Assembly (NCBI RefSeq): GCF_000820505.1
Contig: NZ_JWJD01000001.1
Location: forward strand, 317,094-381,093
Direction: 5' to 3'
Origin: Geoalkalibacter ferrihydriticus DSM 17813
GTDB lineage: Bacteria > Desulfobacterota > Desulfuromonadia > Desulfuromonadales > Geoalkalibacteraceae
Length of the DNA stretch: 64,000 bases
Each line of letters opens with the position of its first letter. The first letter of the stretch is position 1. The notes under the pieces were generated by a model. That model saw nothing but the letters and a program-made list of their open reading frames with translations, had not been told where the DNA came from and made no database searches. The position numbers were made by a program, and so were the translations under genes. Of the stretch, positions 51,755 to 64,000 are shown one piece after another.

Positions 51755-52183
51755 TTACACTTGATCATGATCCTTGCCGATACGGCACGAACCTGAACTG
51801 CAATGAGGCTTTCGCTTGGGAAGGTAGGGCCGGATGTTGGCAAAGCCCTTGTAACCAAGACGGGCCAGTGGATTGATCAGAGGCAAGGTGATGAATGTGC
51901 CAAGCAGGCCGAACAGGGTCGAGGCGGGGAAAGCCTGCCAGATCGCCCAGAAGGCCTCAACCCCACGATACACCCGGCCCTGCGCGTCGATGGCGTGCAG
52001 CTCGTACATAAAATCTTTCAGGGAGATGTGGTAAGGGCCCGGATCAAAGTCCGGGTCGCTGATGTCAACGCCGATCAGGTGATCGTCGCGGTCCCGGCGC
52101 AGATAATGCTCAACCTCCCGTGCACAGACCGAACAGCCACCGTCATAGAAAATCAGCAACGGAAATAAGGGTTTGTCCGGCAT
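51755..52183 (-). CDS. DCC-family thiol-disulfide oxidoreductase-like protein
   Basis: A 142-residue DUF393/DCC protein. It starts with a thioredoxin-like beta strand and active-site pair IFYDGGCSVCAREVEHYLRR (CxxC), and continues with DGRVYRGVEAFWAI-like helices (AQGRVYRGVEAFWAIW). The family is thought to act as a disulfide oxidoreductase but this is not proven. ATG 52183 has GAGGAG in front. Starts 13 bases after the exonuclease III stop, on the same strand. Confidence 0.85.
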   Translation of the reverse strand: MPDKPLFPLLIFYDGGCSVCAREVEHYLRRDRDDHLIGVDISDPDFDPGPYHISLKDFMYELHAIDAQGRVYRGVEAFWAIWQAFPASTLFGLLGTFITLPLINPLARLGYKGFANIRPYLPKRKPHCSSGSCRIGKDHDQV

Positions 52184-52196
52184 TGGCGCTCCTCGC

Positions 52197-53015
52197 CTAC
52201 TCCACGTCGATCTCCACCCAAACCGGGCAATGATCCGATGGTTTGTCCATGGCGCGGATATCGTAATCAATGCCCGCCGCACCGCACGCATTGAGCAACG
52301 GCCTGCTCACCAGAACCAGGTCGATGCGCAGGCCGCGTTTGGGGTCATCCTCAAACCCTCGGCTGCGATAATCAAACCAGCTGAACCGATCCGAGATTTC
52401 GGGATGCAATTCCCGAAAACTGTCTCGCAGCCCCCATTCCTGCAGGGCGGAAAACCATTCGCGCTCTTCCGGCAGGAAGCTGGTTTTACCAGTGCGAAGC
52501 CAGCGCTTGGCGTTCTCGGGGCCGATGCCGATGTCGCCGTCAACTGGTGCGATGTTGAAATCGCCCATGACCACCAACGGCGCATCCGGATCGCCTTCTT
52601 CCTGCAGATATCGCTGCAGGTCAGCATAAAAGCGCCGCTTGGCAGGAAATTTGATTGGATGATCGCGGTTCTCTCCCTGAGGAAAATAGCCGTTGATCAC
52701 CTCCAGGGTTTTTCCCGAAGGCAAGGCGAAGCGCGCACTGATGAAGCGCTTTTGCGCCTCTTCACCATCACCGGGAAAGCCGAAGCGCACCTCGGTCGGC
52801 GCCTGCAGCGAAAGAAGAGCCACGCCGTAATGGGTTTTCTGGCCGTGATAGGCAACCTGATAACCCAGATCCTCAATGGCCTGAACTGGGAAATCGGCAT
52901 CCTGAACCTTGGTTTCCTGCAAACCGATGATGTCGGGTTGATGCTTGTCGATGACAGCTTTGAGCTGATGCAGGCGCGAACGCAGTCCGTTGACGTTGAA
53001 CGAAATAAATTTCAT
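52197..53015 (-). CDS. xthA: exodeoxyribonuclease III
   Basis: A 272-residue AP endonuclease/exonuclease of base-excision repair. It opens [14 protein letters not shown] and carries the metal and catalytic motifs [11 protein letters not shown], the [12 protein letters not shown] segment, MGDFNIAP and [10 protein letters not shown]. Length is normal. ATG 53015 is chosen as the typical family N-terminus; the ribosome site is weak. It follows the DUF3617 gene by 11 bases. Confidence 0.95.
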
Positions 53016-53026
53016 GATCGTTCGCT

Positions 53027-53575
53027 CTAACGCCCGACAGGCTGGAGATTTCCGCAATCGGAGGAGATCCAGCGTGCCCTCTGGTCGATATCGATCACTT
53101 CCGGCCTGCCTTCTATTGTCGTATTGATAACCGCGTTGCCGATGTATTCCTTGCGGCTGACAATCGTCACCTCGCCTTCACCGTGCGAGGGCGGCTCATC
53201 GTCACAGGTAAAACGTACGCGAATGGTGTTTCCTGAACGCTCGAGAACTTCCTGAGTACAGTTTTCTTCGGCCAGATGCAATTCGCCACGGGCAATCTCT
53301 TCTTCGCTGAGACAAACGCGAAAGCTGCTTTCATCCGCCCCGATACTGATTCCCTGAGCGGCCATCATCTGTTCCATCATCTGCCGTTGTTCCGGCGGCA
53401 AAGAATCCAGTTGCCGCCGCGCCTCACGCATCATCTCTTCCATCTGTCCGCTCTGACTGGTCATGCTCAGGGTGTGCTCCCACAGCCCGGAATCGATTTT
53501 CAGGTTTTGCGCAAAAACCTGGGAGCCAAACAGAACTGCCGCGCAAGCAAACACGATCGCGAGTTTGGATCTCAT
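53027..53575 (-). CDS. DUF3617-family periplasmic protein
   Basis: A 182-residue secreted protein with a signal peptide (residues 1-22, ending VFAQ) followed by [20 protein letters not shown] and [11 protein letters not shown], the DUF3617 pattern, and a Cys pair in the second half (EENCTQ and RFTCDDEP). The family's function is unknown. GGAGG precedes ATG 53575. It is the first gene of a unit with exonuclease III and the DCC protein. Confidence 0.85.
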
Positions 53576-53806
53576 AATAAATATCCTCCTTGAAAAATTA
53601 ACATCGTTGCATTTTACCCGAGAATCAAAAAAAAAACATCCTTGAGAAAGGAATAAGCTTTTCAGTGTGGTCACTGACCGCCCGTTCACTCTTTTCTGGA
53701 TCACGAGGTGTCGGGTCTTCTTGAAAAGTTTGTTGCTCAGGACGCTGGATCAATTTTTGAAAATAAAGTAACCTCCACTTTTCTCAGCAGCCTGAATTGA
53801 TAAATT

Positions 53807-53831
53807 ATCCTGAATCCGTCAGATCCAGGAT
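53807..53831. repeat. 25-bp hairpin repeat (second copy)
   Basis: ATCCTGAATC, five bases, GATCCAGGAT. It shares sequence and shape with the hairpin at 6019-6043, but the second base pair is T-A rather than A-T, a compensatory difference. It lies about 40 bases before the YchJ gene, near an AT-rich TATATAAA that could be its -10 box. Confidence 0.65.
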
Positions 53832-53869
53832 TATATAAACCGGTCCCGAACAAAAAAGGAGCTATATCT

Positions 53870-54352
53870 ATGAGCAGTTGTCCCTGCGGGAGCGCAAAAG
53901 AGTATGCCGTCTGTTGTGAGCCGATCATCACCGGAAAGAAAACCGCCGAGACCGCCGAGCAGGTCATGCGGGCACGCTACACGGCCCATGTAAAAGTCGA
54001 AGTTGATTTTCTGTTTGAGAGCACCCACCCTGACTACCGCGAGGGCTATGATCATAAAGGGACCCGGACCTGGGCGGAAAGTTCCGACTGGTACGGTCTG
54101 GAAATTCTCAACACCGTCCAGGGCGGCCCAGGTGACGAAGACGGTGAAGTCGAGTTCATTACCCGCTTTCGCGACAAGGACGGCAAGCGCACCCATCATG
54201 AACGCGGACAGTTTAAACGCAAGGAAAATCAGTGGCTGTTCACAGAGGGGATTATGGTCAAGCCCCAGCCGCTGACCTCAAACAAAGTCGGCCGCAACGA
54301 CCCCTGTAGCTGCGGCAGCGGACTCAAATACAAAAAATGCTGCGCGAAATGA
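53870..54352 (+). CDS. YchJ family protein with two SEC-C motifs
   Basis: A 160-residue protein with SEC-C zinc motifs at both ends: [17 protein letters not shown] at the start and [20 protein letters not shown] at the end, around a cystatin-like NTF2-type core (the UPF0225/YchJ family). SEC-C motifs bind zinc and contact SecB or the ribosome in SecA; the role of YchJ is unknown. It is followed with overlap by the YaiI gene. Confidence 0.9.
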
Positions 54353-54807
54353 ACGTGACGATATGGATCGACGCCGATGCCTGCCCGCGCGCGGTCAAAG
54401 ACATCGTCTTTCGGGCCGCAGAGCGCTTACAGCTCAAGGTTTGCCTGGTGGCCAACAAGGGTCTTGCCAAGCACCATACCCACCTGATTTCCTCAGTCGT
54501 GGTTCCCGGCGATCCTGACGAAGCGGACAAGTACATCGCTCAGCATGCCACAGCTTGCGATCTCGTGATCACTGCCGACATCCCTCTGGCCGCCAAGGTT
54601 GTCGCCAAGGGGACTGTGGCGATTGATCCGCGTGGCACCCTCTACACCGGCGACAATGTTGGCGAGCGACTCTCCTCGCGCGATCTCATGCAGAGCTTGC
54701 GCGATGAAGGAATGGTACAGGGTGGCCCTGGCCCGTTCGGATCCGCAGACCGCCAGCGCTTCGCCTCCGCCCTGGATCGCACACTCACACGCATGCTGCG
54801 CGAATGA
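54349..54807 (+). CDS. YaiI/YqxD family PIN-like protein (DUF188)
   Basis: A 152-residue protein beginning [20 protein letters not shown], the strongly conserved DADACP motif of the DUF188/UPF0178 family, with later [16 protein letters not shown] and [11 protein letters not shown]. The fold resembles PIN nucleases but no activity is established. ATG 54349 overlaps the stop of the YchJ gene (ATGA), so they are coupled; a start 12 bases upstream is possible. Confidence 0.88.
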
Positions 54808-54866
54808 TATAATTAGAGCCCCTGCAACAACCTTAATGGTGGATCAATTTTTAGGAGGAGTGAGAT

Positions 54867-55118
54867 ATGTCCAAGAACATGCCCGACGGCGGGATGCCCA
54901 TCGCGTTGACCCTTGACCCGGGCACCTATTTTCGATGCACCTGCGGAAAGTCGCAAAACCTTCCATTCTGCGACGAATCACACAGCAGTACCGGCCAGTT
55001 GCCGATCACTTTTAAAATCAAGAAACGCCAGAAAGTCTATCTCTGCGGCTGTGGCTCGAGCGGGGACCAACCTTATTGCGATGGAAGCTGCGGAGTATCG
55101 CCGGCGGGAAGAGAATAA
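54867..55118 (+). CDS. CDGSH iron-sulfur protein with two domains, the second with Cys for His
   Basis: An 83-residue double-CDGSH protein. The first site reads CTCGKSQNLPFCDESH, ligands Cys24, Cys26, Cys35 and His39. The second reads CGCGSSGDQPYCDGSC, with Cys60, Cys62, Cys71 and Cys75; the usual final His is replaced by Cys. Each should hold a [2Fe-2S] cluster, the first of the labile mitoNEET type, the second fully Cys-ligated. Such proteins are probably redox or electron-transfer factors. GGAGGAG precedes ATG 54867. Confidence 0.9.
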   Translation: MSKNMPDGGMPIALTLDPGTYFRCTCGKSQNLPFCDESHSSTGQLPITFKIKKRQKVYLCGCGSSGDQPYCDGSCGVSPAGRE

Positions 55119-55191
55119 GGTGCGCTGACGCACGACCAGAGTGCTGCCATAGGTCACAATTTTGCCGGAAAATTAATACAGGGCATAAAAA

Positions 55192-55228
55192 AAGGGTTAA
55201 GCATATCGCCTAACCCTTGTTTTTTTTG
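55192..55228. terminator. bidirectional terminator at the tRNA-Gly remnant
   Basis: AAGGGTTA (55192-55199), 11 bases and TAACCCTT (55211-55218), with a T run on both strands (55219-55227; complement of about 55186-55193). It lies immediately downstream of the tRNA-Gly 3' fragment on the minus strand, as the terminator of the former tRNA gene would. Confidence 0.85.
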
Positions 55229-55257
55229 GAGCGGGAAACGGGATTCGAACCCGCTGT
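55227..55257 (-). other. tRNA-Gly 3' fragment, probable attachment site of an integrated island
   Basis: On the minus strand the sequence reads GCGGGTTCGAATCCCG (a complete T arm) then TTTCCCGC and TCCA. That is the 3' end of a bacterial tRNA-Gly (GCC), including encoded CCA. No anticodon arm, D arm or 5' acceptor strand (GCGGGAATAGC) is found to its right, where AT-rich DNA begins. This is the arrangement left at one end of an element integrated at a tRNA 3' end. Confidence 0.75.
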
Positions 55258-55407
55258 CGAAAAAATAACAAAAGAGGCAATAGTCTATATTTTCAATAAC
55301 TTTTGCCATCTGTTCCGCCTGTCAAAGTCCATCTCTTAACATCTAAATCCAGGTAATATCATCCTGTTTGGTGAAAGTCTGGTGAAAGTCATGCAAGGGT
55401 TGCGGCG
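55258..55407. other. gap after the attachment site
   Basis: No gene is seen in these 150 bases. GTGAAAGTCTGGTGAAAGTC (55370-55389) contains a direct repeat GGTGAAAGTC and may be part of the recombination core or an integrase arm site; this is a guess from position. Confidence 0.3.
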
Positions 55408-56400
55408 TTAACTTATTTTTGTATAATGCTTGTCAAACTCTTTCTGGATGTTCGGATTATAAAACGTTTTCTTACCGCCATTTGGATTTTTCGGATTCAG
55501 AAGCCGCTCGTATGCGAACTTTTTATCCCCTTCCAGCTTCTTCCTTATCTTGTGATAATTTGCGTTCATTTTGAAATCGGAATACCGCTTCGATAACCGG
55601 GTACTAAGGATATCGTAATCCCAAGGATACTTATCAGTAAAGTCCTCTTCTGACAGATATACTGCAGTAGCGCCTGGATCGTTGGTGATCTGAACTGGAA
55701 GACCAGAAGTGCTCTTGACCTTTTGAAATTTTACATCAATCCTCAGGGTCAAGTTGTAATCGCCAACATCCTCAATGCCATCATATCCTTCTTCTGATTT
55801 CTTGATGTAATCCAAAACCTTCCTTTCGCTAGAATTGAGTGAAATACCGGGGGCCTCATTAAAATTCCTGAAGAACGATAAGGGCATGAGGTAAAAATTA
55901 TATCTTGATAGAACATCGCCAAACCAAGAAGATACTAAATGAAGGTAGTTTTGAAGAGATGCGCTACCTAACTCCTGAATCTTCAGTGACAACAGCAAAT
56001 CATCATTTACGAAATGTATCGAGTTATCCCTAATCTCAGTAAGGGCAACCAAGTTATCGCTCACAGCTTTGTTTATTTTAACTCCGTATTCCTCCGTCAC
56101 GATTCGGTAGGCTTCAAAAAGATTAATAGAAAGCGGATTACCAGAGCGATTCTTTTTCGGTCTTTTTACGGTAGATTTCTTGCCAGTTATAAGTGTTTTG
56201 TACTCCATCGCATAGAGCGCGGCCAATTTATTGCTGGCCAAGTTAAGTATCTTCGCTTTTAAGAGCAATTCCCAAGAGTTAATGCACAATACTGAGAAGG
56301 TCTCTTCGCGATACTTGAAATCTGGCTTATTGTATATCTCTATTGCCGAAAGCATTGCCGAGATAGATTTTTCGAGCATTAATCGAGATCGTGACTTCAT
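55408..56400 (-). CDS. DUF3644 domain protein
   Basis: A 330-residue cytoplasmic protein with the DUF3644 signature at its start: SRLMLEKSISAMLSAIEIYN, then TFSVLCINSWELLLKAKIL, and NSIHF near residue 130 (RDNSIHFVND), typical of HEPN-like folds. Members are often found in mobile and defence loci; the N-terminal region may be a nucleic-acid nuclease. The later part is basic and mostly helical. AT content is higher than in the core genes. It is the first gene past the attachment site. Confidence 0.8.
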   Translation of the reverse strand: MKSRSRLMLEKSISAMLSAIEIYNKPDFKYREETFSVLCINSWELLLKAKILNLASNKLAALYAMEYKTLITGKKSTVKRPKKNRSGNPLSINLFEAYRIVTEEYGVKINKAVSDNLVALTEIRDNSIHFVNDDLLLSLKIQELGSASLQNYLHLVSSWFGDVLSRYNFYLMPLSFFRNFNEAPGISLNSSERKVLDYIKKSEEGYDGIEDVGDYNLTLRIDVKFQKVKSTSGLPVQITNDPGATAVYLSEEDFTDKYPWDYDILSTRLSKRYSDFKMNANYHKIRKKLEGDKKFAYERLLNPKNPNGGKKTFYNPNIQKEFDKHYTKIS

Positions 56401-56437
56401 GAAGCTCCCTTCGGTAAATCAACGTCTACTTTGAACG

Positions 56438-56569
56438 TCACAGAGCTTCTTCAAAGCGAATTGTTGTCTCGACGACATACTTAATAGCCCTTTCCACGAC
56501 CTCAGGAGCTTCTCTATTGAAACCCCCGCGAATGTTTCCTCGCACAACATTCGAGAAAAAGGGGCCGGT
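56438..56569 (-). other. possible short or truncated gene
   Basis: The 44-codon open frame between stops reads SNVVRGNIRGGFNREAPEVV followed by ERAIKYVVETTIRFEEAL. Its composition looks like protein rather than random translation, with an amphipathic C-terminal helix. No ATG is present; a GTG is possible. It may be the tail of a deleted gene. No homologue is recognised. Confidence 0.3.
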
Positions 56570-56622
56570 TTACGATCAGCACCTGCCTAATAACGTTTTG
56601 TCGGCTCTATCACTTAAAAATG

Positions 56623-56867
56623 CTACGTTGTAATACATGCATCTTTAAATTTCTCACTTAGTACAAGATAACTTTTTTCATTTTCTTTTTTAAAATAACC
56701 ATTTTCACAAAGAGAAACGACGGCATTATAATCAGAAATTCCACTGAAACGCTTTTTTCCGATTATTACAGTATAGAATGGATCGCTATCCATTTTGACA
56801 ATGAATACTCTTTTATTATTTGTTTTTTTTACACATTCAAAAATTTCTTTTTGTTTTTTTTCCCCAT
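56623..56867 (-). CDS. small island gene split at a run of eight A (frameshift or slippage)
   Basis: ATG 56867 follows AAGGAG but its frame stops after 12 codons. A run of eight A (complement of 56854-56861) lies five bases after the start codon. Shifting -1 there gives about 80 codons, reading KQKEIFECVKKTNNKRVFIV, then KMDSDPFYTVIIGKKRFSGI and SDYNAVVSLCENGYFKKENE, ending ACITT. This is coherent protein. Either it is a pseudogene, or ribosomal or polymerase slippage on the A run makes the product. No family recognised. Confidence 0.5.
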
Positions 56868-56905
56868 GATTCTCCTTTTTAAATTTTTACTTTATTATTG
56901 CATTT

Positions 56906-57565
56906 TCATAATTCACTATCAAGATGTGTTATTTTTTCTCTTTTTTCATAGAATTCAAAATTGCTTTGATTGATTTCTGACATAAATATTTTTTTACCTA
57001 CTTTTTTTTGCCAAAAATTATCAGGAAGAGCTAAATTTGAATCAACTTTAGTCTTGAATAATACATATTTTTTAAAATATAAGCCATTGCCAGAACATTT
57101 TTCACATTTATAAACAATTTTTTCGGAACCAATACTATTTGTTTTTTTTTCTACTTGTGACACGTTACCGACGCTATTACATATATCACATTGAAAATTT
57201 TTCTCATAAAATTTCGCTAAAGCAACTCCGTCCCCGCCACAGTAAGGGCAATTGCCCCTAGTGTAAATTCTCGTTAAATCAAATTTTCTCAAGAATTCAT
57301 TTTCTATTTCTCTAAATGGCGGATTTTTTAGCTTGTCCTTAAATTTTGGCAAATCACAGAATTTTCTGACCCAGAAAGAAGGCGGGGCATTAGTTTTACA
57401 GTTTTTCAGGTAGTGCGTGGTCTCCTTCACATAAACAACCATTCCGTTGCCTGAGCACATTGGACAATTAATTTTATAATTAAACACATACTTTCTATTA
57501 ATTTTCTTCACATATTCAGTTAGCAGGATCAGCCATCTTATTAATTTATTTCCACTATCACTCAT
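56906..57565 (-). CDS. AT-rich protein with four DnaJ-like CxxC motifs
   Basis: A 219-residue protein of unknown function. Four cysteine motifs lie at residues 34-41 (CPMCSGNG), 106-113 (CPYCGGDG), 126-133 (CDICNSVG) and 154-161 (CEKCSGNG), matching the CxxCxGxG pattern of the DnaJ zinc-binding domain, but there is no J domain or client-binding domain. The linkers are rich in Lys and Phe. The start ATG 57565 has GGAG about seven bases upstream. Base composition differs sharply from the hsd genes. It follows hsdR by 22 bases and is probably co-transcribed with it. Confidence 0.7.
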   Translation of the reverse strand: MSDSGNKLIRWLILLTEYVKKINRKYVFNYKINCPMCSGNGMVVYVKETTHYLKNCKTNAPPSFWVRKFCDLPKFKDKLKNPPFREIENEFLRKFDLTRIYTRGNCPYCGGDGVALAKFYEKNFQCDICNSVGNVSQVEKKTNSIGSEKIVYKCEKCSGNGLYFKKYVLFKTKVDSNLALPDNFWQKKVGKKIFMSEINQSNFEFYEKREKITHLDSEL

Positions 57566-57587
57566 AAGAAACTCCAGAATAACGGGT

Positions 57588-60500
57588 TTACACCCACCAC
57601 GCACACAGCACTTCGGCCTGCTTAAGCACCAAATTCACCGCGTCCTCCTGACGATCCGGCGGATATTTCCATTTGCGCAGGGTGCGCCGCACGAGGTTGC
57701 GAAGCTTGGCCCTCACGTTTTCGCGCACCTGCCAGTCAACCGAGGTGCTTTTGCGCAGCTTTTCGGTTATCTCAACGGCAATTATTTTGAGGATGTCGTC
57801 GCCCAACTCCCGCACGGCGCTTTCATTCCTGGCCAAGGCGTCGTAGAAAGCGACCTCGTCGGTGTTGAGTCCCAGTTCCTCATCACGCTTGAGGGCTTTC
57901 TGGAAATCCTTGGCCATTTGAATCAACTCTTCGATGACCTGGGCGGTTTCGATGGCGCGGGCGTGATAACGGTTCAGGCTGGCCAGCAGGCGTTCGCTGA
58001 ATTTCTGCTCCAGAACCAGGTTGTTGCGGGTGCGCGCCTTGATGGTGTCGCGCAGCAGTTTTTCCAGCAGTTCCAGGGCCAGGTTGCGGCTTTTCATGTT
58101 GCGCACGTCTTCCAGAAATTCATCGGACAGCAAGGCGATATTCGGTTTGTCCAGCCCGGCCAGGGAAAAGACATCCGCCACACCTTCCGCGATGACCGCA
58201 TTGTCGAGGATCTGCTTCAGAGCGCTGTTTTTTTGTTCTTCGGTCAGCTTGCTGTCCACCGTGGTGTGTTTGACGATGGCGGCGCGGATGGCGGCAAAGA
58301 AGGCGATTTCCTTGCGCAGCGGTTCGGCTTCGTCCAGGGTGCCGCACAGGGAAAAAGCGCGGGTGATGGCGGCCATGGCGTCGAGAAAGCGCTTTTTGCC
58401 CTCCCGCAGGCCAAGGATATGATTTGCCGCCAGCACCAGAATCTGATGAGCGCGGGTTGGGTAGTCGCTGTAGTCGAAGCCGTGAAACAGTCCCCTGACC
58501 ACGTCGATCTTTTCCAGAAGCACCGCCAGGGCTTCTTCGGCGGCCAGTGTCGGCACGCCCTTGCCTTGCGCGTTGATGTAAACCTTGAGGGCCTGCTTGA
58601 GTTCATTGGCGATGCCGATGTAATCGACCACCAGCCCGCCGGGCTTGTCCTTGAAAACCCGATTGACCCGCGCAATCGCCTGCATCAGGTTATGACCGCG
58701 CATCGGCTTATCGACGTACATGGTGTGGCAGCTCGGGCAATCAAAGCCGGTCAGCCACATATCGCGCACGATCACCAGTTTCAGCTCATCCCTGGGATCC
58801 TTGAAACGGCGCTCCAGGCGTTTTTTGGTTTGGTTGTTGTAGATATGCGGCTGCATCAGCGCCCGGTCGGCCGCCGAACCGGTCATGACAATTTTGATCG
58901 CGCCCTTTTCCGGATCGGGGTTGTGCCATTTGGGCCGGATTCTGACGATCTCGTTGTAGAGATGCACGCAGATCTCGCGGCTCATGCACACGATCATGCC
59001 TTTGCCGTCGATGACCGCCGTGCGCGCCTCAAAGTGATTCACCAGATCCTCGGCAACTTCCTTCAGGCGCGGTTCGGCGCCGACCAGTTTTTCCAGCGCC
59101 GCCCATTTGCTTTTGGTGCGCTCGCGGAGATTCAAGTCTTCCTCGTCCTCGATGACCTCTTCGACTTCGTCGTTGAGCGCCTCGATTTCCGCGCGGTTGA
59201 TATCAAGCTTGGCCAGGCGCGATTCATAATAAATCGGGACCGTGGCGCCATCATCGACGGCATCCTGAATATCGTAGATACTTACATAATCCCCGAAGAC
59301 CGCGCGGGTGTCCTTGTCTTCCTGGGAGATGGGCGTGCCGGTAAAACCGATAAACGATGCCTGGGGGATGGCGTCGCGCATGTGCTTGGCGTAGCCGTAG
59401 ACATAAGCGCCGGTTTTGGTGTCGAGCCTGGCCTTAAACCCGTACTGGCTGCGATGCGCCTCGTCGCTAATCACCACGATATTGCTGCGCGTGCTCAGCG
59501 GCGGGTGTTTTTCCTCGCCGTTCAACAGCGAGAATTTCTGTACGGTGGTAAAGATGATGCCGCCCGATTGCCGTGCCGCCAGCAGTTCACGCAGATCCTC
59601 GCGGCTATCGGCCTGCACCGGGGTCTGCCGCAACAGTTCCTGGGCATTGGAGAAGGTGCTGAAGAGTTGACCATCGAGATCATTGCGGTCGGTGACGACG
59701 ACAATGGTCGGATTGTTCATTTCGGGCTGTTGCAGAAGTTTGCCAGCGTAGCAGCACATGGTGATGCTTTTGCCCGATCCCTGGGTATGCCAGACCACCC
59801 CGGCCTTGCGCGATCCGGGCTGCACCTCCTGGCCCCAGGTCGCGCGCGGCATCGACACGCGTTCCGGTGTGACGGTCGCCGAGGCGATGAGCGTCACCCG
59901 CACGGCTTCGCGCACGGCATGAAACTGATGATAGCCAGCGATTTTCTTGATCAGTTGGCCGTCATCCTGCTCGAAAAGGATGAAATAGCGCAGGTAATCA
60001 AGGAGCAAGGTGCGGTCGAAAAATCCCTTGATAACTTTTTCCAGCTCGTATTCCAGCAGCGGCTTGTCGTCTTCATTGCGCAGGGTGCGCCAAGGCAGAA
60101 AGCGCTCCTTGCTCGCCGTCAGCGAACCAATGCGCGCCGTCAAGCCGTCGGAGACGACTAAGGCTTCGTTGCAGACAAAGAGATCGGGGACCTCGTCCTT
60201 ATAGGTCTGGACCTGATCGTAGGCTTTCCAGATATCGGCGTGCACATCGGCGGGGTTTTTCAATTCGATGAGCGCGATGGGCAGGCCGTTGATAAACACC
60301 ACGAGATCCGGGCGGCGCAGTTGCTTGCAGCCCTTGACGGTGAACTGATTGACCACCAGGAACTGATTGCGTTCGACATGCTGAAAGTCGATCAACTGCA
60401 CATGGTCGTTTTGGATGTCGTCGTTGTCGCGGTATTCGACCGGCACGCCTTCGAGCAAGAGCTTATGAAAAGCGCGGTTGTTGTGGATCAATACCGGCGA

Positions 60501-60728
60501 TTCGGGCTTGGTGACTAACTGGGCGGCGTCTTCGAGGATGGCGAAGGGGATGTGCGGGTTGATTTTTTGCAGGGCGGCAAGCAGGCGCTCGGTGAGAATG
60601 GTTTGTTGATAATCGCGGCGCTCGGGGGTGCCGCCGTCGGGGGCGAGATCGGGGCCGAAGGCGGTTGCGTAGCCGCCTGTGCGGAACCAGTCGAGGCAAA
60701 GTTGTTCGAGGTGGTCTTCGGTGATCAT
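57588..60728 (-). CDS. hsdR: type I restriction enzyme HsdR subunit
   Basis: The 1046-residue motor-nuclease subunit of a type I restriction-modification system. A PD-(D/E)xK nuclease occupies the N-terminus (RRPDLVVFINGLPIALIELK), followed by a superfamily 2 translocase: Walker A TQGSGKSITMCC, DEAH box VISDEAHRSQYG, motif III GFTGTPIS and motif VI QAIARVNRVF. The C-terminal helical part binds the methylase. ATG 60728 lies seven bases after the stop of the DUF262 protein and has GAGG in front. Confidence 0.95.
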   Translation of the reverse strand: MITEDHLEQLCLDWFRTGGYATAFGPDLAPDGGTPERRDYQQTILTERLLAALQKINPHIPFAILEDAAQLVTKPESPVLIHNNRAFHKLLLEGVPVEYRDNDDIQNDHVQLIDFQHVERNQFLVVNQFTVKGCKQLRRPDLVVFINGLPIALIELKNPADVHADIWKAYDQVQTYKDEVPDLFVCNEALVVSDGLTARIGSLTASKERFLPWRTLRNEDDKPLLEYELEKVIKGFFDRTLLLDYLRYFILFEQDDGQLIKKIAGYHQFHAVREAVRVTLIASATVTPERVSMPRATWGQEVQPGSRKAGVVWHTQGSGKSITMCCYAGKLLQQPEMNNPTIVVVTDRNDLDGQLFSTFSNAQELLRQTPVQADSREDLRELLAARQSGGIIFTTVQKFSLLNGEEKHPPLSTRSNIVVISDEAHRSQYGFKARLDTKTGAYVYGYAKHMRDAIPQASFIGFTGTPISQEDKDTRAVFGDYVSIYDIQDAVDDGATVPIYYESRLAKLDINRAEIEALNDEVEEVIEDEEDLNLRERTKSKWAALEKLVGAEPRLKEVAEDLVNHFEARTAVIDGKGMIVCMSREICVHLYNEIVRIRPKWHNPDPEKGAIKIVMTGSAADRALMQPHIYNNQTKKRLERRFKDPRDELKLVIVRDMWLTGFDCPSCHTMYVDKPMRGHNLMQAIARVNRVFKDKPGGLVVDYIGIANELKQALKVYINAQGKGVPTLAAEEALAVLLEKIDVVRGLFHGFDYSDYPTRAHQILVLAANHILGLREGKKRFLDAMAAITRAFSLCGTLDEAEPLRKEIAFFAAIRAAIVKHTTVDSKLTEEQKNSALKQILDNAVIAEGVADVFSLAGLDKPNIALLSDEFLEDVRNMKSRNLALELLEKLLRDTIKARTRNNLVLEQKFSERLLASLNRYHARAIETAQVIEELIQMAKDFQKALKRDEELGLNTDEVAFYDALARNESAVRELGDDILKIIAVEITEKLRKSTSVDWQVRENVRAKLRNLVRRTLRKWKYPPDRQEDAVNLVLKQAEVLCAWWV

Positions 60729-60735
60729 TGTGACC

Positions 60736-62871
60736 TCAATCAAACCGCTCTTTAACGTAAGGGTTCATTTCAGACAGTGAAAGATGCAGAGAGGAATTGC
60801 CGCTACGCACAAAAAACTTTTCAACCGGTTGCCCTCCTTTATCCTTGAGGATAAGGATGATGGGCTTCTGAGCTGGCAGAATATCGACCTGGCAAACCTC
60901 CAAATCGTCACCGTCTACATGAAACCTGACCCGCACCTTTCCGGCGACATAGGATGCGCCAATATGGTTGTTGAGAATGCCGCGCAGGTGCCGCTCGAAC
61001 TTGTCGCGATCCCCCCCATCGAGCGAAATGTAATCATGCTCCAGACCAAGTACTTCACCATCGTCTTTGACGCCAATCATCAAGGTACCTCCTTGACTGT
61101 TGGCAAAGGCAGCTACCGATTTAACTATGACCATTTCCAGATCTTTATTTACCCTGGATTCAACATAATCCCAGCGCAGCGATGATTTAAACTCCAACTC
61201 ATCACTCTCCCCCTCTGCGATCATATCATCAAGAGTAACCGGCACAGCCACCTGCTCGGTTGCGGTTATCCCCTCCAGAAACGCATTCAATCTCTCGACC
61301 AGCATCTTTCGCCGCTCGGCCAAAAATTGCTCATAGTTTTCGATTTTCCACAGTTCCTCGTTCTCAGGGATGCTTTGAAGTTCAAGAGCCACGCGGAAGT
61401 GAGATTTCACTTGGCCCAGATAGGCTTGTGCCGAAGTTGCAGACTTGGCTCGGTTGGCAAATTGGGTAAGGATTGCCCGGTTGGTAAACTCCTGAGCCAA
61501 GGCATATTTGACGCGGTTTTCTTTGCCGTATCCAACTTTTTTGAGTTCCGAATACGGGAAAATATGATCCTTTTCCAACTGGTACTTCGCACCCATATTG
61601 CGGCGGAGCTCAATTCCGGTAGTCAGGCAAACTGCCATACGGCTTTTATGGTACCAGCGCATCAAACTGAAGAGCGGATGAGAGATTCCCCGACCCTCAA
61701 ACTCTGATGGGCTAATCTCCAAACGACTTTCTTCTGAAATTATCTGCAGCAGATCATCAAAAGGATGAGCTGATTCCGCCACCGTTCGCAGGTCGCGATC
61801 AAGTTTTTGCGGTAACTGACTGACATAGCGCGCCCGGATCTGAGAATAGTAAAACCACTTCACCATCTTGCGGATTTCCGTCTCGTTCAAGTGCTGATCG
61901 CCTTTATCGAAGCAATAGACTATCATCGGGACCAAGGCATAAACCGAATTAATCTCGTCGGTGTGATCAACGTAGGCGTTACTGCGCAGCAGATTGGCGA
62001 CGTAATCAAGCACCTGTTTATCGAGACGGTCCCAGGCGGCTCTCAGCCGTTCGTTATTCTCTTCGCCGTGCAGTTTTTTCATATCCGAGCCCTGGTGGTA
62101 CAGACAACCCAGCAGGACATAGACAATGAAATCAAGCTTGAAAATAAAGCCTTCCTTTTGCAAATTGGCGAGTTTTGCCTTGAAGAGGTCACGGGCCTGG
62201 GGCCAATAACCGGAGATCTGCGCCAGGGCCAGCTCTGCGTCGGTCAAAGCTACTCCGCTGGCGTTCACCTTGTAAAAGATGTCGATCGCCTCGCGGATTG
62301 TGGCTTTGACCGGAATGATCTGCTCCGGGAAATCCCGTTCGAGAACACCCGTAATTTTACTGATATTGTCATTGAGCTTTTTAAGTTCTTTCATTTCAAT
62401 CTGCTTGCCGATCGCGGTAAATTTTGTTTGCAGATCGAAGGCGCCGACTCGCTTCTGGAACACGTCGGTAATGTTCTGCCACAGAGGATTGTTCTCCATC
62501 CGGGTTTTCATGTAGTAGGCGAGCTCCAGGGTTTCGAGGTTTACATACAGCCCCCGGGTGTCATTCATGATTTCGCTGATGGTGTAATAACTCGGCAACT
62601 CCCCCGTAATGAGCATATACAGTGAGGTGATCCGCTGCTGGCCGTCAAGTAACAGCCGAACAGCGCCCTGCTTCTCATCATACTTGTGCGGGCCTTTCAG
62701 TTCCGGCGGATTCGCTGTCTCCCAAGTAAGCATGGTTCCAGTGGGATACTCCTTGATCAGCGAGTCGATAAGCTGCTTTGCATCGTCACGTTTCCAGACG
62801 TATTCGCGCTGAAAAGCGGGGATGAAAAGTTGTTTTTCGTCGATTTTTTCGAGAATAGTTCTAATTTTCAT
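60736..62871 (-). CDS. DUF262-HNH-AlbA_2 fusion protein inside the type I RM locus
   Basis: A 711-residue protein of three modules. Residues 1-270: DUF262 (ParB-like) with PAFQREYVWKRDDAKQLIDS and LLLDGQQRITSLYML, the GmrS-type NTP-using motif DGQQR. Near residue 435: HNH-type DUF1524 segment, LEKDHIFPYSELKKVG. Residues about 550-711: an AlbA_2/Schlafen-type domain starting GESDELEFKSSLRWDY and AFANSQGGTLMIGVKDDGEV. GmrSD proteins cut modified DNA; AlbA_2 binds nucleic acid. The fusion lies between hsdS and hsdR, an unusual place. Confidence 0.85.
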   Translation of the reverse strand: MKIRTILEKIDEKQLFIPAFQREYVWKRDDAKQLIDSLIKEYPTGTMLTWETANPPELKGPHKYDEKQGAVRLLLDGQQRITSLYMLITGELPSYYTISEIMNDTRGLYVNLETLELAYYMKTRMENNPLWQNITDVFQKRVGAFDLQTKFTAIGKQIEMKELKKLNDNISKITGVLERDFPEQIIPVKATIREAIDIFYKVNASGVALTDAELALAQISGYWPQARDLFKAKLANLQKEGFIFKLDFIVYVLLGCLYHQGSDMKKLHGEENNERLRAAWDRLDKQVLDYVANLLRSNAYVDHTDEINSVYALVPMIVYCFDKGDQHLNETEIRKMVKWFYYSQIRARYVSQLPQKLDRDLRTVAESAHPFDDLLQIISEESRLEISPSEFEGRGISHPLFSLMRWYHKSRMAVCLTTGIELRRNMGAKYQLEKDHIFPYSELKKVGYGKENRVKYALAQEFTNRAILTQFANRAKSATSAQAYLGQVKSHFRVALELQSIPENEELWKIENYEQFLAERRKMLVERLNAFLEGITATEQVAVPVTLDDMIAEGESDELEFKSSLRWDYVESRVNKDLEMVIVKSVAAFANSQGGTLMIGVKDDGEVLGLEHDYISLDGGDRDKFERHLRGILNNHIGASYVAGKVRVRFHVDGDDLEVCQVDILPAQKPIILILKDKGGQPVEKFFVRSGNSSLHLSLSEMNPYVKERFD

Positions 62872-62923
62872 GAAACTTGGCCCTTGTTGTTAGATGACAT
62901 TTGCTATTTGATCAGGTTGAGTT

Positions 62924-64000
62924 TCAGCAATTGAAAGTTCGCCAGAGCAGGGTGTCTCGGAGGGTGGCTAGGGTACGCGATTCTTCATCTCGTGCCTTGA
63001 TAACGGAAAATATGCCACCAACAATTTCGCCAAAAGATGCCGTAACGTCATGCCCCGGAACCGCAATCTGATAATTTACAAAACAGTCGTTTGGAACCCG
63101 CTGTCGGCCTGATGTGCCTGACATATTCGCGATAGCAAAGGCTCTGAATTCGGGATGCCGACACAACAAGTAACCAAATGCCTGCGGCAAAGGAGCTCTT
63201 GGCCGCAAAACGATGAACTCAGTAGACCCCCAGCCAACCTGCTGCTCTGTAAGAAAATCGACATAGGCAGTTTTCCCGTTCTCAAGGCATGGAGTAATAC
63301 GTGCGAGCAATGAGTCGCCATTCATGAACTTTGAACCTGAACTGAATTCTCGTTGGACAACCTCACAGACTCTGGCCGAATTTGTCGGCACATTAGCCAT
63401 ATCCAGATAAGGTGCCATGACGCCTCTTTTCAACGTCCGCGAAGGATTCACCTCTATAGCGTCAGGCAGCGCTTCCACCCTCCACCCCTCCGGAATCAAC
63501 CCCAACTCCGACTCCACCAACGCACCAGGAAACAGGGCGGCGGTAGCGGCAAGCTGTTGGCGCTGTTCGGTGGAAAGCTGGTCGACCTCGGATTTTCCGC
63601 TGATGGCGCAAATGGCTGCGCGCTCGGGATCGCGGCCTGCGGCTTTGGCTTCGATCTTACCTTTGACCGGCTCGAAATCGACAAACCAGCTTTTGAAAAT
63701 GGTTTGGGCGATCTGTTCAAGGGTTTGGTTAATTTGGCGGTTGAGTTCAATTTTGTCGTCTATTGCCCCAATGTAATCTGCAACTTGATCTTGAACCTCT
63801 CTTGGAGGCAGGGCCAATTCCATTGTCCGAAAATCATCTCTACGGACGAATTCTCTAGCCGCACCCGATGCCCACGCTAAGAGGTCTTTTGATTTAAATG
63901 TAAAAGCATAATAAAGATAGCGTTGATTTACTCTTCCATCTTTCGCCCTAACCACCCACATATTTTGATTGAGTAGCGCAGGCAAATCGCACTCTTTTAC
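62924..64000 (-). CDS. hsdS: type I restriction enzyme specificity subunit HsdS, 5' part missing
   Basis: The reading frame stays open to the window edge (VKECDLPALLNQNMWVV), so the first target-recognition domain is cut. Residues here include the central conserved helix (REVQDQVADYIGAIDDKIEL then FKSWFVDFEP), the second recognition domain (GLIPEGWRVEALPDAIEVNP onward) and the last helix (EESRTLATLRDTLLWRT). HsdS chooses the DNA sequence for methylation and cleavage. hsdM should lie beyond the right edge. Confidence 0.92.
   Translation of the reverse strand, partial: VKECDLPALLNQNMWVVRAKDGRVNQRYLYYAFTFKSKDLLAWASGAAREFVRRDDFRTMELALPPREVQDQVADYIGAIDDKIELNRQINQTLEQIAQTIFKSWFVDFEPVKGKIEAKAAGRDPERAAICAISGKSEVDQLSTEQRQQLAATAALFPGALVESELGLIPEGWRVEALPDAIEVNPSRTLKRGVMAPYLDMANVPTNSARVCEVVQREFSSGSKFMNGDSLLARITPCLENGKTAYVDFLTEQQVGWGSTEFIVLRPRAPLPQAFGYLLCRHPEFRAFAIANMSGTSGRQRVPNDCFVNYQIAVPGHDVTASFGEIVGGIFSVIKARDEESRTLATLRDTLLWRTFNC

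Follow-up and report, generated by a model that had tools for sequence, protein, structure and literature searches.

The right-hand end of the 64,000-nucleotide stretch of Geoalkalibacter ferrihydriticus DSM 17813 analysed here (the window; positions 317,094 to 381,093 of contig NZ_JWJD01000001.1, hereafter C1) holds the left portion of a genomic island integrated into the 3' end of a tRNA-Gly-GCC gene. The island carries a type I restriction-modification (R-M) operon, in which the gene for a fusion protein, here termed X, is embedded, together with genes for a DUF3644 protein and a protein with CxxC repeats. X combines a DUF262 (GmrSD_N) domain and an HNH nuclease domain with a Schlafen-type AlbA_2 domain, and it appears to be a movable module that has been exchanged among unrelated type I operons. 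Altogether, the locus is probably best explained as a tRNA-Gly-GCC integrative island with layered defence cargo, whose enzymatic activities and division of labour are predicted from the relatives of the encoded proteins.

The two ends of the island

The following features lie at the left end (C10 is another contig of the assembly and G002 a closed genome of the same genus):

55192-55218, minus strand: terminator-like hairpin immediately outside the attachment site, AAGGGTTAGGC..GCTTAACCCTT followed by a T-run, weak when taken alone
55226-55254, minus strand: tRNA-Gly 3' fragment and left attachment site, TTGGAGCGGGAAACGGGATTCGAACCCGC, identical at 29 of 29 bases to the complete tRNA-Gly genes on C10 (tRNA-Gly-GCC) and C1, with an intact attB equivalent in G002
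55368-55390, plus strand: two putative tandem arm-type repeats, TGGTGAAAGT, 11 bp apart, recognised by repeat matches

No complete tRNA and no tRNA body are present in the 64-kb window, and the GC content to the right of the fragment is 31-42%, compared with 57.5% in the left flank. The motif TGGTGARAGT has just two matches in the whole window, both at the tandem repeats, and a second tandem pair is found on C10 between the integrase gene and a complete tRNA-Gly gene. The pairs hence lie inside both island ends, which suggests that they are arm-type binding sites. The sequence-only reading had taken the bodiless tRNA-Gly fragment and the AT-rich DNA beyond it to mark one end of an integrated element, and this is borne out by the 29-bp repeat, the paired motifs, the integrase and the contiguous flanks in G002. 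The number of terminator-like hairpins is not above that in shuffled sequences, no Rfam match was obtained across 52000-64000, and no promoter signal in 55100-57700 exceeds those of shuffled sequences.

Rightward of the fragment, no complete tRNA-Gly gene is encountered on C1 as far as C1:425000, because C1 is mis-joined inside a multicopy insertion sequence, IS21, in which several other contigs also terminate. C1 enters this IS21 (IstB and transposase domains) 15 kb beyond the fragment, and the mis-join region spans C1:387391-390239 (L013:2392-5240). The exact IS21 ends were defined by alignment of the copies, and the flanking bases were then paired as target duplications, which gives the likely partners: GATGGA joins the left part of C1 to C10, CCCCTC joins C8 to the right part of C1, GCCTCC joins C16 to C12 and the 5-bp GTGGA joins C4 to C6. 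Since the target duplications pair in this way, C1 is chimeric and its left part runs on into C10. That C1 is correctly assembled, and that a genuine IS21-mediated recombination parted the island from its tRNA end, is very improbable: the contig is reported as continuous beyond IS21 up to pse-like genes, but its join holds single-N gaps inside the repeat, and each IS21 end pairs with another contig by target duplication, whereas a recombinant would not restore matches at all copies.

The IS21 copy separates the two halves of a tyrosine recombinase, the N-terminal part being encoded left of IS21 on C1 and the C-terminal part (Phage_integrase) on C10. Homologues in three other genomes run through both halves, which overlap solely at the target duplication, and one of these intact homologues has Arm-DNA-bind_2 and Phage_integrase domains. 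A complete tRNA-Gly-GCC gene follows next after the integrase on C10, and both the complete tRNA-Gly and the integrase that the earlier reading had sought beyond position 64000 are therefore found past the mis-join. The tRNA 3'-end direct repeat is thus present at both island ends, with one copy within the intact tRNA gene, which the recombinase adjoins. The island measures about 19 kb (15.07 kb on C1, 1.2 kb on C10 and about 2.7 kb of IS21), or about 16 kb without IS21. The later insertion of IS21 split the integrase gene and therefore probably immobilised the island, suggesting that it is now unable to move unless helped in trans. For annotation, the lesson is that a true island end can be recovered from a fragmented assembly via matched IS21 target duplications.

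In G002, the left flank (glgX, pld, dcc, xth and duf3617) is contiguous with the right flank (tRNA-Gly, slt and nadB) at a single tRNA-Gly gene, about 1.2 kb separating duf3617 from the tRNA. The slt gene was considered as a conserved anchor and rejected: tRNA-Gly lies next to slt in many relatives, but not in the same-genus genomes G001 and G003, and G002 is for this reason the sole same-genus comparison site. The comparison of synteny proposed from the sequence thus supports an insertion, although the G002 site keeps two hsdM pieces of 85-87% nucleotide identity, and an ancestor or close relative must therefore once have had a related island there. These pieces, which are accompanied by an ORF (open reading frame) resembling a four-helix IVS protein (L049:5953-6845), mark the site of a type I island that has since been lost. 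Neither an intact tRNA-Gly directly adjacent to the fragment nor the same gene set in all relatives without flanking repeats, each of which would have spoken against an integrated element, was found. Outside the island, genes for YchJ/SEC-C, YaiI (DUF188) and CDGSH proteins lie between duf3617 and the tRNA fragment (53870-55118) and are missing from that place in G002; YaiI is encoded at other sites in relatives' genomes, and the stretch is possibly a separate insertion.

The fusion protein X and its type I partners

Rightward of the fragment, and all on the minus strand, the window encodes the DUF3644 protein, a small broken ORF, the CxxC protein, HsdR, X and HsdS, with hsdM following past the window:

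55408-56400, minus strand: DUF3644 protein, a predicted HEPN RNase of 330 aa with R124-x4-H129 (PF12358, E 3e-52; PADLOC PDC-S19, E 2e-146)
56623-56867, minus strand: small A-run ORF, 27% GC, read from the sequence, with a good ribosome site and ATG
56906-57565, minus strand: CxxC protein, 219 aa, 31% GC (PF00684, E 4e-7, under the curated cut-off)
57588-60728, minus strand: hsdR, type I restriction subunit (HSDR_N, SWI2_SNF2 and T1RH-like_C; PADLOC REase_I)
60736-62871, minus strand: X, DUF262 (GmrSD_N)-HNH-Schlafen AlbA_2 fusion of 711 aa (Pfam; PADLOC HEC-05, E 4e-47; AlphaFold model)
62924-64000, minus strand: hsdS, running past the window end (Methylase_S, E 2e-20 on the complete gene)

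The type I operon has the order hsdM-hsdS-X-hsdR. HsdM, encoded next beyond hsdS, matches N6_Mtase (E 3e-110), and the translation of hsdR, which starts at ATG 60728 or TTG 60743, shows the PD..ELK, Walker A and DEAH motifs, so that all three subunits of a type I R-M system are present with catalytic motifs. Elsewhere in the genome, close to genes for tRNA-Arg and tRNA-Ser (C1:510000-529999, L018), lies a second, distinct type I system (HsdM 47% and HsdR 32% identical).

X matches the Pfam families GmrSD_N and SLFN_AlbA_2; NCBIfam provides no name for X or the DUF3644 protein. Its conservation was assessed in an alignment of 46 homologues reaching down to about 22% identity. The DGQQR motif of the DUF262 domain is invariant, and the His-Me finger residues H436, N464 and N473 are found in 45 of the 46 sequences; in the AlbA_2 domain, E555, E560 and K562 are conserved in all 46 and D603 in 45. 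Residues 1-533 of the AlphaFold model (pLDDT 88.8) match BrxU with a Z score of 22.2, SspE and DndI being next best, whereas the scores for residues 542-711 are Z 11.8 with SAMD9 and Z 9-10 with several Schlafens, the SAMD9 DNA complex 7ksp being among the top structure matches of this domain. A profile of the 46 homologues likewise retrieves BrxU (6e-38) and SLFN11/12/13/14 (1e-9 to 7e-8) among solved structures, and in the alignment with SLFN11, E555 and E560 fall on two catalytic glutamates. By sequence and fold, X is thus a member of the GmrSD/BrxU family, with a DGQQR-containing DUF262 domain and a His-Me finger nuclease in a single chain, and it carries an AlbA_2/SLFN fold. No description of a GmrSD-Schlafen fusion was found in a literature search, most subscription journals and bioRxiv preprints being outside its scope.

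A scan of 84,980 genomes yielded 80 X loci, which occur in many phyla, archaea included. When X is at least 50% identical, a same-strand hsd gene lies within 3 kb in 15 of 27 loci and within 60 bp in 10 of them, compared with 5 of 53 loci within 3 kb for more distant X proteins (Fisher p 1.5e-5), with the limits that many contigs are short, that the loci are not phylogenetically independent and that the hsd models were seeded from few loci. The gene orders M-S-X-R, R-X-M-S, M-S-R-X, X-M-S-R and R-S-X-M have been found, and the Hsd partners are as low as 22-30% identical; next to the nearest X homologue (75% identity), HsdM and HsdR are only 30% and 28% identical. Given this variation in gene order and the low Hsd identity beside a 75% identical X, the protein apparently passes from one type I system to another, unrelated one. 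The Sinorhizobium pSymA megaplasmid also encodes a close relative near type I genes, and no full-length close homologue was seen in viral contigs.

DUF3644 and the remaining cargo

DUF3644 has been assigned to the HEPN families in a published analysis (PMC3710099). The R124-x4-H129 motif is invariant in all aligned homologues (sets of 8 and 14 sequences), and in a VIA-align comparison HEPN domains, among them HEPN toxins and Csm6, make up almost all of the model's best matches (Z 7-10, the highest being 9.9). A search of solved structures with the DUF3644 sequence alone gave no match, and neither did Foldseek give a significant match with the model, HEPN chains being on top only in the VIA-align second look. 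With a HEPN fold and an R-x4-6-H motif, the protein is most likely a HEPN RNase. DUF3644 genes are also present inside type I operons in two other genomes, with the orders M-S-DUF3644-RhuM-like-R (RhuM-like being a tentative label) and R-M-S-DUF3644. They are found alone on phages and plasmids as well, with more full-length copies on viral contigs. One phage-like IMG/VR contig (L197:1-12399) encodes an 82% identical DUF3644 protein beside a Dcm-like methylase, an HNH-like gene and genes that read as lysis and tail genes; these may form a defence or exclusion cassette carried by phage.

The CxxC protein has four CxxCxGxG-type motifs like those of the DnaJ zinc domain, without a J domain, and its relatives were sought without success among plasmids, phages, viral contigs and a sample of 395 genomes from the phylum. 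In the adjacent A-run ORF a stop codon follows 11-12 codons after the ATG, and the rest of the frame (about 80 aa) can be reached only via a -1 shift at ATGGGGAAAAAAAAC, an A8 run directly behind the start codon with the pattern A_AAA_AAC; sequencing error, phase variation and programmed frameshifting are candidate explanations. No credible homologue of this ORF was found in plasmids or the phylum sample. The two genes are most likely a recent AT-rich addition to the island. Hence, of the gene set listed from the sequence alone, HsdS, HsdR, the DUF262-HNH-AlbA_2 protein, the CxxC protein and the DUF3644 protein are indeed encoded in the same direction, whereas the A-run gene does not hold up as an intact ORF.

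Besides hsdM, the sequence past position 64000 encodes a further recombinase-like protein (Integrase_1, weak), an HD/TraI_2/MobH-like protein and an HTH protein, and it carries IS21. The genes for these three proteins (L012:19150-19983 and L013:657-2091) are possibly left over from a conjugative or mobilisable element.

Proposed division of labour and known systems

We propose that the island was inserted into the tRNA-Gly-GCC 3' end by a tyrosine recombinase that has an arm-binding domain, and that HsdM, HsdS and HsdR would restrict unmodified foreign DNA. X is most likely BrxU/GmrSD-like: through its DUF262 domain it would recognise, in an NTP-dependent manner, phage DNA that is modified and type I-resistant, the HNH domain would cut this DNA, and the C-terminal Schlafen/SAMD9-like AlbA_2 domain would add nucleic-acid binding and possibly RNase activity. 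The DUF3644 protein, as a HEPN RNase, would most likely halt growth once the DNA-cutting layers fail. For a type I system that shares the work with an embedded GmrSD-like one, TgvAB offers an experimentally tested precedent (PMC11411939); for an RNase guard encoded among type I genes, PrrC does. The analysis itself shows the element with both of its ends, the order of the operon, the folds with their conserved motifs and the occurrence of X in unrelated type I operons, while the activities and their division are predictions from relatives.

Several observations weigh against this proposal. In the structural alignment, X shares only 18% identity with BrxU, and 12 of the 27 close X loci have no detectable type I system nearby, many of these contigs ending near X. 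The DUF3644 model is of moderate quality (pLDDT 76.7), and a Z score near 10 between helical proteins can be generic. Furthermore, the third acidic position of SLFN11 (D252) corresponds to K602 in X, with the conserved D603 one residue on. RNase activity of the X Schlafen domain is plausible but, given this substitution, uncertain.

The strongest alternative, to which we give a substantial though less than even chance, is that the AlbA_2 domain is a DNA-binding or dimerisation module only, which widens the range of modified DNA recognised and has no RNase activity. AlbA_2 domains bind DNA, the SAMD9 DNA complex is a top match, and the position of K602 varies freely among the homologues; however, the invariance of E555, E560 and K562 down to about 22% identity, with D603 in 45 of 46 sequences, exceeds what binding alone would appear to need. 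It is unlikely, on the other hand, that the cargo is a chance collection in which X, the DUF3644 protein, the CxxC protein and the type I system are functionally unlinked defence units hitchhiking on a tRNA-targeting element. The GC content varies sharply among the island genes (27%, 31%, 40%, 49% and 58%), suggesting separate arrival, and both the solitary DUF3644 genes and the association of X with unrelated type I families agree with such a collection, but X and DUF3644 are each found again within type I operons of unrelated genomes, for X above chance.

A stronger version of the layered-defence proposal makes X a two-headed effector, a single chain that would detect modified phage DNA, cleave it through the HNH domain and, as a fallback, attack tRNA with the Schlafen domain, and that would be passed as a module between unrelated type I systems. 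We regard this as rather doubtful; if true, X would connect restriction with an arrest of translation, brought about by a family of RNases that also serves human antiviral defence. Still less probable is a PrrC-like guard function, in which X is silenced by the Hsd complex and freed by a phage anti-restriction protein, whereupon the Schlafen domain cleaves tRNA or the HNH domain cuts DNA, and the cell is killed or arrested. The location between hsdS and hsdR, as reported for RloF, the embedding of PrrC in a type I locus, the close spacing of hsd genes in 10 of 27 loci and the resemblance of the C-terminal domain to the SAMD9 tRNase domain at Z 11.7 fit such a guard, and SAMD9L and SLFN domains repress translation (PMC11221667). 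However, a specific inhibitory contact would hardly tolerate the varied gene order and the divergence of the Hsd partners, TgvAB in a like position is independent of HsdR nuclease activity (PMC11411939), and the third catalytic position is a lysine.

If X functions as a BrxU/GmrSD-like effector, a single protein would cover the gap that phages with modified DNA leave in type I restriction and may add a fallback at the RNA level. Through its movement among unrelated type I operons, X lends itself to asking directly whether defence genes embedded in a host system depend on it, and the fusion gives a Schlafen/SAMD9-type domain a place in a bacterial defence setting that can be assigned.

Among known systems, TgvAB is likewise encoded by DUF262/DUF1524 genes that are part of an island-borne type I R-M operon, has DGQQR and H..N..N motifs and protects against hypermodified phages, but it needs two proteins instead of one, and no Schlafen domain is named for TgvA or TgvB (PMC11411939). 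RloF of Campylobacter jejuni is also a DUF262 protein encoded between hsdS and hsdR, and its description names no Schlafen domain (PMC4619093). BrxU/HEC-05 (PDB 7p9k) matches residues 1-538 of X over its full length, whereas X adds an AlbA_2 domain of 170 residues and is located in a type I operon rather than in BREX or Hma. The Schlafen/SAMD9 tRNase domains (SLFN11/12/13/14; SAMD9, 9o0d) share the fold of residues 542-711 and two of three catalytic acidic positions (E555 and E560), and differ in that X has a lysine with a conserved aspartate beside it at the third position and fuses the domain to a type IV-like nuclease. PrrC, from the EcoprrI type IC locus, is similarly an accessory protein encoded among type I genes, but it combines an ABC ATPase with a HEPN anticodon nuclease domain, both of which X lacks; an identification of X as PrrC was rejected given its DUF262-HNH-AlbA_2 architecture, and the DUF3644 protein, also without an ABC ATPase, is not of the PrrC type. 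The DUF3644 protein itself does not differ from its HEPN family (PADLOC PDC-S19), sharing the full-length match, the R-x4-H motif, the HEPN-fold matches and the links to R-M loci, and is a member of it. The sequence-only reading had called the cargo unrecognised, which applies to the Schlafen fusion and the CxxC protein, the unfamiliar parts of the island, and not to a DUF262 gene inside a type I operon, a known arrangement from RloF and TgvAB, nor to DUF3644, a published HEPN family and PADLOC candidate. The island is hence a new arrangement of mostly known parts rather than a new kind of system.

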